Shown here: positions 9,581 to 34,683 of the stretch, one piece after another | Position numbering within the stretch: the first letter of the stretch is position 1 | How the letters are laid out: every line of letters begins with the position of its first letter | Source: Candidatus Fermentibacterota bacterium | GTDB lineage: Bacteria > Fermentibacterota > Fermentibacteria > Fermentibacterales > JCC-6 | Reading direction: 5' to 3' | Assembly (NCBI GenBank): GCA_030592645.1 | Contig: JAUVIR010000022.1 | Span: 1 to 46,498 of the forward strand | Length of the DNA stretch: 46,498 bases | Notes under the pieces: generated by a model | Told to the model about the DNA's origin: nothing | Database searches by the model: none | Seen by the model: the letters and a program-made list of their open reading frames with translations, nothing else | Translations under genes and position numbers: made by a program

Positions 9581-10738
9581 ATGCTCAAATACTTTATTCT
9601 CGTTCTTTTTCTGTCTGGACTGGCAACGGCATTATCTCCGATCTGGGAAACCGAGTACCAGCTGGAAAGTAACGGAAGCATCATCGATGTTGGCTATTAC
9701 GGCGCACCATGCGTGGTGGATTGGGACGTGGACGGTTTGAAAGACCTGGTGCTCGGTCAGTTTTCCTACGGCTACATCTACTTTTACAAGAACGTTGGCA
9801 CAAATAGTGCTCCAGTGTTCAATGGAGCGGTACTCCTCTACGCGGATGGAAGTCCGATAACCATGGCTTATGGTTGATGCACGGGCTCGACGAATCCACA
9901 GGTTGTGGATTACAACAATGACGGGCTCCTTGACATAGTTGTTGGTGATCGCAACGGCTTTATTCATTACTATAGACGCACTTCGAACATGGATGCGACC
10001 TTGACGGAAGAACCCGACATCACCTGTGGGGGAGTGACCATCGATTGCGGTTACAGCGCGGCTCCTGCAATAGTCGACTGGGACGGCGACGGCAAAATAG
10101 ATATGCTGCTGGGCAGCGAAGCCGGTCAAGTCAGGCTTTATCTGAACGACGGTGCGGATACCCAACCTATCTTCAACAGTTATACTAACATTCAGAGCAA
10201 CGGGACCGATATCAGCCACATCAGGAACTGCCCGCAGGTATACGACCTGAACCAGGACGGTAAAAAGGATCTGATCTGCGGAGCGAACGATTACAACGTT
10301 TACTATTATGAAAACGTTGGTACAAACTCCGCTCCGGTATTCAGTGGATCGGAATCCATTGCGTACAAGTATGCCGGTATGCGCCTCTGGATCGATGACT
10401 GGAATGAGGACGGTCTGCCGGATATGCTGACAAGCGACTATAACGGATACGTCTGGGCCTGGATTCAGCAGTCCACAGGCGTAACTGAAGGCACCGCCCC
10501 CGTCCCTTCACGGTCGCTCTCTGCAAGCTCTAATCCTTTCATGGAACTGGTAACAGTTACCGGAGAAGGTTTCTCTTCCGGAACACTTCAGATCTTCGAT
10601 GTTTCCGGAAGAACAATTCTGGAAGTACCTTTTTCGGGCAGTTTTGCATGGGATGGTTCCGGGACTTCAAACGGAACCTACTTCGTCAGAGTGACAGATG
10701 ACTTCGGATCCTCGTCACTCAGACTTCTGAAGCTTTAA
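9581..10738 (+). CDS. Secreted FG-GAP/VCBS repeat protein, candidate selenoprotein read through an in-frame TGA (Sec99)
   Basis: The 386-codon frame is interrupted only by TGA at 9875-9877; the parts before and after are in the same frame and form one coherent protein. It has a signal peptide (ending near ATALS), then four to five FG-GAP/VCBS beta-propeller repeats with DWDVDG, DYNNDG, DWDGDG, DLNQDG and DWNEDG calcium-type loops, and a C-terminal FlgD-like sorting tail (SSNPF...FDVSGRT...YFVRV). The TGA codon falls in a loop reading AYG-U-CTGST, giving a vicinal Sec-Cys pair, in a loop about five residues longer than the matching loops of the other repeats. A perfect hairpin follows at SECIS distance, and SelD in this window is itself a selenoprotein. 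The alternatives are a nonsense mutation (TGG or TGC to TGA), a sequencing error, or two separate peptides. The second part has no signal peptide of its own, so it would be useless alone. Confidence 0.7.
9893..9911 (+). promoter_or_regulatory. Putative bacterial SECIS element in the FG-GAP gene
   Basis: AATCCACA-GGT-TGTGGATT is a perfect 8-bp stem with a three-base loop. The loop begins 23 bases after the TGA and starts with G, which fits the published description of bacterial SECIS elements (a small hairpin 16-37 bases after the UGA with a G early in the apical loop). The apical sequence CAGGTTG matches CAGGCTG in the selD hairpin. Confidence 0.65.
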
Positions 10739-31711: not shown

Positions 31712-31786
31712 AATAATAGAGATGAGCTGTGATATATAAATAAGATATATTGTCTACCACAAAATGTTATTATGAAAGGAGATGCC

Positions 31787-32569
31787 GTGAATAGTATGTG
31801 GATGTCACTACTGGCTGTGCTGTTCGCATGGCCTGCTGTCTCAGAATTATCCGCGGCCTGGCAGGAGCACAATCTTACTTATTCATTCTCAGGGGCGATC
31901 TCATTAAAACTCGCAGATATAGATGACGATGGAGATATGGACATCCTCGGAGCTGCCTGGAACTCCGGGATCTCATGGTGGGAAAACGGAGGCGGCTCGT
32001 TCAGCATGCATACCATCGATGACGGGTTTTCAGGTGCCATATTCGTGGAATCGGAAGATATCGATAGTGATGGTGATATGGATCTTATCGCCGTGTCTTT
32101 TGCCGATGAACTGGTCTGCTGGTTTGAGAACGATGGATCAGAAAACTTCACACAGAGAGTAATCGCGGTTGGAGTAGATGGTCCCTGGACTGCATGTCCT
32201 GGTGATATCGATGGAGACGGCAGGGTTGATGTAGCATCCTGCGCGTACAATCTAAACGCAGTTACATGTTGGGAGAATACCGATTCCACATCAACCGGGG
32301 AAGGTGAAATGACCGGTGACATTACTGCATTTGAAATCGCTCCTAATCCTTCAAATGGATCATTCAAGATTGAATATTCGGTCAGTGAGAATTGTGTTGT
32401 CTCCGCGGGTATCTACGATGTGTCCGGCAGGCTGGCACGGAGCATCATTGAGAATGTGAGCAGAGGCGCTCACAGTATTTCCGTTTCGGAGTTACTCGAA
32501 GGAGTATATCTGATTCAGCTGGAACAAGGTGAGGTTGCCTCAGCCAGGAGAATATCTGTTATCAGGTAG
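31787..32569 (+). CDS. Small FG-GAP/VCBS repeat protein with sorting tail
   Basis: An exported protein of about 260 residues. It has a signal peptide (MWMSLLAVLFAWPAVSELSA region) and three FG-GAP/VCBS repeats with calcium-type loops DIDDDGDMDI, DIDSDGDMDL and DIDGDGRVDV. The C-terminal sorting domain is IAPNPSNGSF...YDVSGRLA...VYLIQLE. It is a shorter relative of the selenoprotein candidate at 9581, but has no TGA codon and no inserted loop. I choose GTG 31787 because AAAGGAG sits five bases before it; ATG 31772 is in frame but would overlap that site. Its strong promoter suggests high expression. Confidence 0.8.
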   Translation: MNSMWMSLLAVLFAWPAVSELSAAWQEHNLTYSFSGAISLKLADIDDDGDMDILGAAWNSGISWWENGGGSFSMHTIDDGFSGAIFVESEDIDSDGDMDLIAVSFADELVCWFENDGSENFTQRVIAVGVDGPWTACPGDIDGDGRVDVASCAYNLNAVTCWENTDSTSTGEGEMTGDITAFEIAPNPSNGSFKIEYSVSENCVVSAGIYDVSGRLARSIIENVSRGAHSISVSELLEGVYLIQLEQGEVASARRISVIR

Positions 32570-33388: not shown

Positions 33389-34609
33389 TTAAGTTATCTC
33401 GAGCAGTACTGATGGGTCATCCAGTTCCTCAACACGTCCGATAACGGCTGTTTCGGTATCCCCATGCTCTATGAGCGCTCTGACCAGAGCATCCGCCTGG
33501 TCAGGTCTGACTGTGGCAAGCAGTCCTCCGGAGGTCTGGGCTTCAGCGAACAGGAGATAATATTTTCTATCAACGTCTTCTCCGAATTTCAAATAAGGGT
33601 CGACGTAATCGGAACACTTGCATACACCTTTTGGATTGAATTCATCAAGCAGACCGGGAAGGTCCGGCAGGAGCGGTACATCTTTTGAATTTATCACTAA
33701 CCTGACTCCCGCATTTCTGGCCACAGGAAGTGAATGACCAAGAAGACCGAAACCTGTAACATCAGTCAGGCAGCTCACATCGAATCTCTGGATTATTTCG
33801 GACGCATATTTGTTCAGCCGCTCCATCCAGTATACAAACGTACTGAACTGTTCATCGGTCAGGCCGTCATTCATCATGGCGTCGCAGTAAACTCCCGTAC
33901 CGATGGGTTTTGTCAGGATTATAACATCACCGGGTTTAGCGTTGTCATTCGTCAGAACTGTTTTTGGGCTGGTGATTCCAGTTACACTCATACCAAAACA
34001 GAAATCATCCTGTTCCATAGTGTGTCCGCCCAGGAGGACCACACCTGATTCATGAAGCTTCTCAGCGGCTCCGGTAAGCAGCTCCAGGATAGCTTCGGGC
34101 GGGATCTTTCCAGCCGGGTAAGCCAGGTGATTCATCGCCGTAATAGCTTTGGCGCCCATGGCCCATACATCAGAAAGACTGTTTGCGGCTGCTATCCTTC
34201 CGAAGCTTCGCGGATCGTCAACTATGGGGAAGAAGAAATCGACGGTTTGTACGAGAGCTATCTCGTCGGTGAGTTTGTAGACCCCTGCATCGTCCATCGT
34301 TTGCATCCCGACAATAAGATTAGGAGAATCGGGCAGAGGCAGTTTTTCCAGTATCCCGGCCAGCCTGGTCGGGTTTAGCTTACCTGCTCAACCGGCGCAG
34401 GGGCCGTATTCCGTCAGTCTTATCTCTTTACCCGATGGAAGAGAACGCTGTGGAATACCGTCCCGCTGCAGTTTCTCCAGGAGAAATTCGCAGTATGTCT
34501 GCTGATGCCTGTCATGATGGAATTTTATACATTCCGGACAGTTCCCCCGTCTTTTACAGTCGGAGGGACAGGGGCAGTTTTCTCCGTTATAGAGTTCAGA
34601 TTCTGACAA
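33389..34609 (-). CDS. selD: Selenide, water dikinase SelD, a selenoprotein (Sec74) with Cys-rich N-terminal extension
   Basis: Makes selenophosphate, the selenium donor for Sec-tRNA, from selenide and ATP. The frame runs 407 codons from TTG 34609 with one in-frame TGA at 34390-34388. Read as Sec, the segment is EIRLTEYGPCAG-U-AGKLNP, which matches the SelD N-terminal motif with U at the catalytic Cys17 position of the E. coli enzyme. Downstream motifs include QTVDFFFPIVDDP, AAANSLSDVWAMGA, GGHTMEQ and DVTGFGLLGH. The first 62 residues are extra: a small domain with CPCPSDCKRRGNCPECIKFH, resembling the DUF6485 family, and no ATG, GTG or TTG start lies between it and the Sec codon. Annotation pipelines would split this into two genes. 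Confidence 0.9.
34355..34373 (-). promoter_or_regulatory. Bacterial SECIS-like hairpin of selD
   Basis: On the minus strand, CCCG-A-CCA, loop GGC, TGG-C-CGGG, with one A/C mismatch. The loop starts 22 bases after the TGA with a G, as expected for a bacterial SECIS that recruits SelB. The apical CAGGCTG is shared, apart from one base, with the hairpin at 9893-9911. Confidence 0.7.
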
Positions 34610-34683
34610 ATCATCTCATTTCATAGGATAATGGTGTTAATTTCCTACTGCGGGAATATACAAAAGCAGCAAGTTGGGAACAG

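Follow-up and report, generated by a model that had tools for sequence, protein, structure and literature searches.

The locus and its predicted product

We report that the plus strand of the window, i.e., the whole 46,498-nucleotide stretch of Candidatus Fermentibacterota DNA analysed here (GenBank assembly GCA_030592645.1, contig JAUVIR010000022.1), carries at 9581-10738 a gene predicted to encode an exported FG-GAP propeller selenoprotein of 385 residues, with selenocysteine (Sec) at residue 99. Reading of the open reading frames bore out a preliminary description of a single frame whose sole interruption is TGA at 9875-9877, the codon predicted to be read as Sec, followed directly by TGC (9878-9880; Cys100); Cys is the usual, not an invariant, neighbour of this residue. 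The same description had placed one signal peptide, one series of propeller repeats and one sorting tail across the join, and each was recovered. By inspection, residues 1-18 (9581-9634) constitute a signal peptide, which is helical in the structural model. FG-GAP DxDxDG motifs mark blade 1 (residues 47-55; 9719-9745), blade 2 (110-118; 9908-9934), blade 3 (166-174; 10076-10102), blade 4 (222-230; 10244-10270) and blade 5 (273-281; 10397-10423), and the product matches PF13517 (FG-GAP repeats) with 94.6 bits (cut-off 26.9). Residues 318-384 (10532-10732) correspond to a T9SS type A C-terminal sorting domain (TIGR04183, 31.7 bits; cut-off 23).

Beyond the TGA the frame remains open for approximately 286 codons with an unchanged repeat pattern; in the other TGA-ended genes of the window only 0 to 44 open codons follow the stop. 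Given this long continuation with the same repeats, and since the TGA is kept in more than 100 relatives (see below), the interruption is more than a chance event. With respect to export, surface display is plausible, since the genome encodes SprA, a protein of the T9SS translocon (433 bits, with neighbours); together with the sorting domain and the signal peptide (the latter by inspection only) the features of a type A cargo protein are in place. The window also encodes, at 31772-32569 (plus strand), another exported FG-GAP protein, which is short, has a sorting-like tail and lacks a TGA.

Fold and position of the predicted Sec residue

The AlphaFold2 model (mean pLDDT 91.5) consists of repeated four-strand units, and the number of blades, counted from the repeats, is five. 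Fold and sequence searches returned the integrin alpha, BBSome and KICSTOR propellers and CRTAC1, with low TM-scores. The Sec loop runs from blade 1 (outer strand) to blade 2 (innermost strand); between a conserved Ile and the first DxDxDG Asp it counts 17 residues (I93-D110), compared to 12, 12 and 11 residues for the equivalent loops (I35-D47, I154-D166 and I211-D222), in keeping with the earlier estimate of about five extra residues.

In integrin alpha propellers, ligands are carried on the face that matches that of the Sec loop by strand order, and by the same criterion the Sec loop would lie on the equivalent of this ligand-binding face. Outside the repeat core, Arg124, Asn159, Ser160, Arg215 and Arg268 are each conserved in approximately 78-85% of all members, with similar values in the other phyla, and strand order suggests that these five residues share the face of the Sec loop.

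A family with a conserved in-frame TGA

Searches with the read-through protein identified dozens of homologues in 60 related genomes, nearly all with exactly one TGA, and six-frame reading of the homologous loci placed it at one shared column within the motif GUCTGATNPQVVDWNNDG. Among 127 non-redundant full-length members (a count that includes paralogues and shared ancestry, such that members are not independent events) 125 have TGA at the Sec column, one has Cys and one Glu, and none has TAA, TAG or Trp. The alignment of the codon among homologues, which the preliminary description had proposed as a check, thus shows a retained TGA with neither Trp nor scattered stops. That the TGA is a sequencing error or belongs to a decaying pseudogene in one assembly might be considered for a draft genome of 73 contigs; this was ruled out by the homologues, more than 100 of which have the same codon in assemblies independent of this one, and we regard its probability as negligible.

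The 127 members span Fermentibacterota, WOR-3/Stahlbacteria, Calditrichota and one further phylum, and among named GTDB genomes they are found in Candidatus Fermentibacteria, Aegiribacteria, Sabulitectum, WOR-3, Stahlbacteria and a Caldithrix bin; one member is present in a genome (G047) from a small phylum. A bin labelled Desulfuromonas sp. SDB also carries a member, and since this groups with Stahlbacteria in the tree the label may be wrong. In the WOR-3 phylum (147 genomes) one TGA is present in 46 of 46 matches with E < 1e-80, and the next-best match (1e-47) has none. TGA is likewise absent from the remaining FG-GAP proteins that these genomes encode. A covariance model detected five family members in the genome of the window, and by hand count up to about nine TGA members occur per genome (G022). 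The single protein noted initially belongs to a family that has several copies per genome and is spread over at least four phylum-level groups. The searched viral contigs contained no relative of the family.

Cys directly follows Sec in approximately 95% of the members, while other subfamilies have CUP, TUG or DUA contexts. The U-C pair emphasised in the preliminary description is therefore the usual arrangement and not an invariant one; as the adjacent Cys varies, the pair is not essential. In two genomes of the window's genus a TUG-type and a UC-type member form a divergent pair (L062, G000:C34:12300-15300; L049, G012:C3:21700-25000). The genome of the window further contains a short copy (L094, G000:C3:13430-13813) from which the Sec loop is missing and which resembles a decayed or rearranged member of the family.

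The two members without TGA differ in character. L041 (G006:C35:13846-15015) is a tandem duplicate in which TGA-TGT has become GAA, such that both Sec and the neighbouring Cys are lost while the hairpin described below is kept, and it represents a recent Sec loss beside an intact copy. L090 reads DDCPVSGAT at the site, lacks the hairpin and is most readily interpreted as a Cys form. No other Cys at the Sec position was found, with the limit that some phyla were screened only via the pattern PQ[VA]VD, where Cys homologues could be missed.

No gene neighbour conserved across the family was found. At eight Aegiribacteria loci (L118, L122, L123, L153, L160, L162, L165 and L182; probably one syntenic site) a row of DUF362/radical SAM/ATP-grasp-like genes is divergent to the family gene, and at one WOR-3 locus (L134) a DUF362 gene lies upstream of it. 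These genes are possible functional partners of the family.

The SECIS hairpin

The perfect 8-bp hairpin noted previously was confirmed at 9893-9911 (AATCCACA-GGT-TGTGGATT); its first base is the 16th after the TGA, its 3' end overlaps the blade 2 motif and its folding energy is -8.8 kcal/mol. The published model of bacterial SECIS elements specifies a loop of 3-9 nt, a stem of 4-16 bp, G in the first two loop positions, a distance of 16-37 nt from the UGA and an MFE ≤ -7.5 kcal/mol (PMC13188914). The corresponding values here, a 3-nt GGU loop, 8 bp, 23 nt and the energy given above, all fall within these constraints, and the SECIS check suggested at the outset thus gave a positive answer. Scanning the region with Rfam gave sub-threshold chance matches only.

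Codon usage and covariation in the family show that the hairpin is under selection at the RNA level. Specifically, Pro106 is encoded by CCA in 98 of 108 sequences, compared to approximately 11% at other conserved Pro columns, Asn105 by AAT in 81 of 81, with AAC favoured elsewhere, and Val109 by GTG in 103 of 103. Stem pairing amounts to 93%, with slid controls below 44%, and pairs changed on both sides occupy 15 cells, a level reached in 0 of 500 shuffles, although such compensatory counts are inflated by relatedness. In some cases residue and partner change together, e.g. a replacement of Asn by Ser (AAT to AGT) accompanied by GAT to GAC and, in part, CCA to CCG with GTG to GCG (Val to Ala).

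Because relatedness inflates these counts, the best evidence comes from a WOR-3 clade of 20 sequences where PQVVD is replaced by VAVCD. Here the TGA is kept, the old hairpin is gone, and a different 6-7 bp hairpin (GTCGCA-GTT-TGCGAC) with 5-nt loops (AGUUU, GGUCU or CGUGU) is present at nearly the same place and shows covariation of its own (ATC/GAT versus GTC/GAC, p = 0.003).

Sec machinery and the genetic code

The genes sought in the same genome, selA, selB and selC, are all present, as is selD. On contig C29 selA (511 bits) adjoins selB (344 bits), and the tRNA-Sec gene selC is located on C58 (75 bits; gathering score 47). SelD, the selenophosphate synthetase and itself a selenoprotein, is encoded in the window on the minus strand (33389-34615, start codon approximate) and has the motif CAGUAGK with TGA at 34390-34388. 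Ordinary gene callers would start SelD late, at 34306. The hairpin 3' of its TGA is imperfect (CCCGACCA-GGC-TGGCCGGG), and the covariance model of the family hairpin (R1) missed it, as expected since R1 is dominated by FG-GAP coding sequence.

Among the 147 WOR-3 genomes, selA is present in 23 of the 28 that have the family, compared to 37 of the 119 that lack it (Fisher p = 9e-7). Three of the five family-bearing genomes without selA have a full selB; one genome with a very long contig (G142, C1) has selB and a TGA member and no selA match at E 1e-20, which may reflect either missing sequence or another route to Sec-tRNA. Two others (G132 and G158) have neither selA nor a clear selB, perhaps as a result of incomplete assembly.

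TGA is the terminal stop of 14 of the 42 genes in the window; of the 77 family members for which the covered DNA includes the stop, 29 also end in TGA. The code is consequently not reassigned, and genome-wide TGA reassignment was ruled out.

This ordinary use of TGA elsewhere in the genome, together with a GTG start codon at 9905, is what would favour the TGA at 9875-9877 as a real stop, giving the N-terminal 98 residues alone or a restart at the GTG, with the hairpin in a regulatory role. Such a restart would fall inside blade 2, at the very Val109 codon that also forms part of the hairpin, and the stop would have to be TGA, never TAA or TAG, in 125 members. Moreover, the two sides of the join together make up a full propeller with its signals for export and sorting, the relatives without TGA (L041 and L090) are continuous, and the Sec machinery co-occurs with the family; we therefore consider a real stop very improbable. 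The identity of the inserted residue rests on genomic evidence, which leaves room for Trp, Cys or another residue being inserted by a suppressor or near-cognate tRNA, with the hairpin acting as a stimulator of readthrough. Against this, selA, selB, selC and selD are present, the loop and spacing of the hairpin fit the bacterial SECIS model, a GGY loop also follows the known Sec codon of SelD in the window, the family co-occurs with selA, and no relative has Trp at the site; readthrough with an ordinary residue is hence just as improbable.

Taken together, the genomic evidence indicates that UGA 9875-9877 is very probably decoded as Sec and that the gene belongs to a new family. The proposal that UGA is decoded as Sec in an exported protein has thus gained support from TGA conservation, the sel genes, the SECIS fit and selection at the RNA level.

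Possible function of the Sec residue

The data presented above support Sec coding, the SECIS element, the family, the fold and the sorting signal; from these we infer surface location, pocket geometry and chemistry as follows. SelB and tRNA-Sec would read the UGA as Sec, directed by the hairpin at 9893-9911. The signal peptide would export the product, and the sorting tail and the type IX secretion system would move it to the cell surface. The product would fold as a five-bladed FG-GAP propeller with DxDxDG loops that probably bind calcium. The Sec would be positioned in the enlarged loop that leads from blade 1 into blade 2, immediately ahead of the innermost strand of the latter, and would probably serve there as a redox centre or selenolate nucleophile, in most members together with the next Cys, and near Arg124, Asn159, Ser160, Arg215 and Arg268. 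We infer a pocket whose selenolate and arginines would fit a substrate that is anionic or electrophilic. The CUP, TUG and DUA subfamilies indicate that a selenenylsulfide between the neighbours is not a universal mechanism.

Our best guess is that Sec acts as a nucleophile or a ligand on the ligand-binding face of the propeller, near the conserved arginines. Redox or nucleophilic catalysis has, in our view, somewhat less than an even chance of being its role. A less likely role, and one compatible with Sec decoding, is the binding of a metal or metalloid by Sec (with Cys), the exported protein then serving in scavenging or detoxification: the predicted metal-handling selenoproteins SaoC, SaoL, HgcA and MbdU (PMC13188914) also have C and U side by side, multi-copy exported proteins fit scavenging, and the members have on average about six Cys. 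Neither the adjacent Cys nor the others are invariant, with C44 present in about a third and C217 in about a fifth of the members, and the Arg, Asn and Ser of the presumed pocket would better suit an anionic substrate or selenolate stabilisation. A role other than catalysis or metal/metalloid binding appears rather unlikely. As a tentative and broader proposal, which could well be wrong, these proteins may be Sec-dependent, surface-exported propeller enzymes, present in about nine copies in some genomes, where Sec is nearly irreplaceable by Cys, and may hence be a main reason for the retention of the Sec machinery in these phyla.

Comparison with known systems

Apparently, this large family of exported propeller proteins has been undescribed so far. 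A catalogue from 2026 comprises 119 prokaryotic selenoprotein families or subfamilies (PMC13188914), and its Table 1 has no FG-GAP, VCBS or propeller entry. The NCBIfam selenoprotein models gave no match to the protein, and a full-text search of the main texts of largely open-access papers gave nothing relevant that would connect selenoproteins or selenocysteine to FG-GAP, VCBS, Fermentibacter or WOR-3. The family combines a fold without a catalogued Sec member, an extracellular setting and almost no Cys counterparts; the forms found, approximately 125 with Sec to one with Cys, make it a test case. Since Cys forms are almost absent the family is hidden from searches based on Sec/Cys pairs, which exposes a blind spot of that approach, and since standard gene calling splits each member in two the genomes of these phyla are probably misannotated.

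The likeness to T9SS type A sorted surface proteins (TIGR04183) lies in a sorting domain above the curated cut-off and in the presence of SprA in the genome. To our knowledge, there is no catalogued example of such a protein that contains Sec. With FG-GAP/VCBS proteins and the integrin alpha propellers (PF13517 and PF01839) the product shares repeated DxDxDG blades and the propeller fold; it differs in having Sec in a loop that is five residues longer and, with respect to integrins, in having five counted blades instead of seven. A thioredoxin-fold selenoprotein is not what we see, since the fold is a propeller and the motif is UC and not UxxC or CxxU. SELENBP1 (selenium-binding protein 1/methanethiol oxidase) is likewise a selenium-associated propeller, although it is not known to be a UGA-decoded selenoprotein. 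The vicinal C-U selenoproteins SaoL, SaoC, HgcA and MbdU (PMC13188914) also have Sec beside Cys, whereas the present family has a propeller fold, usually places U before C and does not keep the Cys in every member. Finally, as in bacterial selenoproteins with a bSECIS such as formate dehydrogenase and SelD, there is an in-frame UGA, a SelA/SelB/SelC/SelD set and a stem-loop 16-37 nt downstream with G in the first two loop positions; the difference is that the family is uncatalogued and that its Cys counterparts are almost absent. The novelty lies in the family itself, in its export and in the scarcity of Cys forms; the decoding is entirely canonical.
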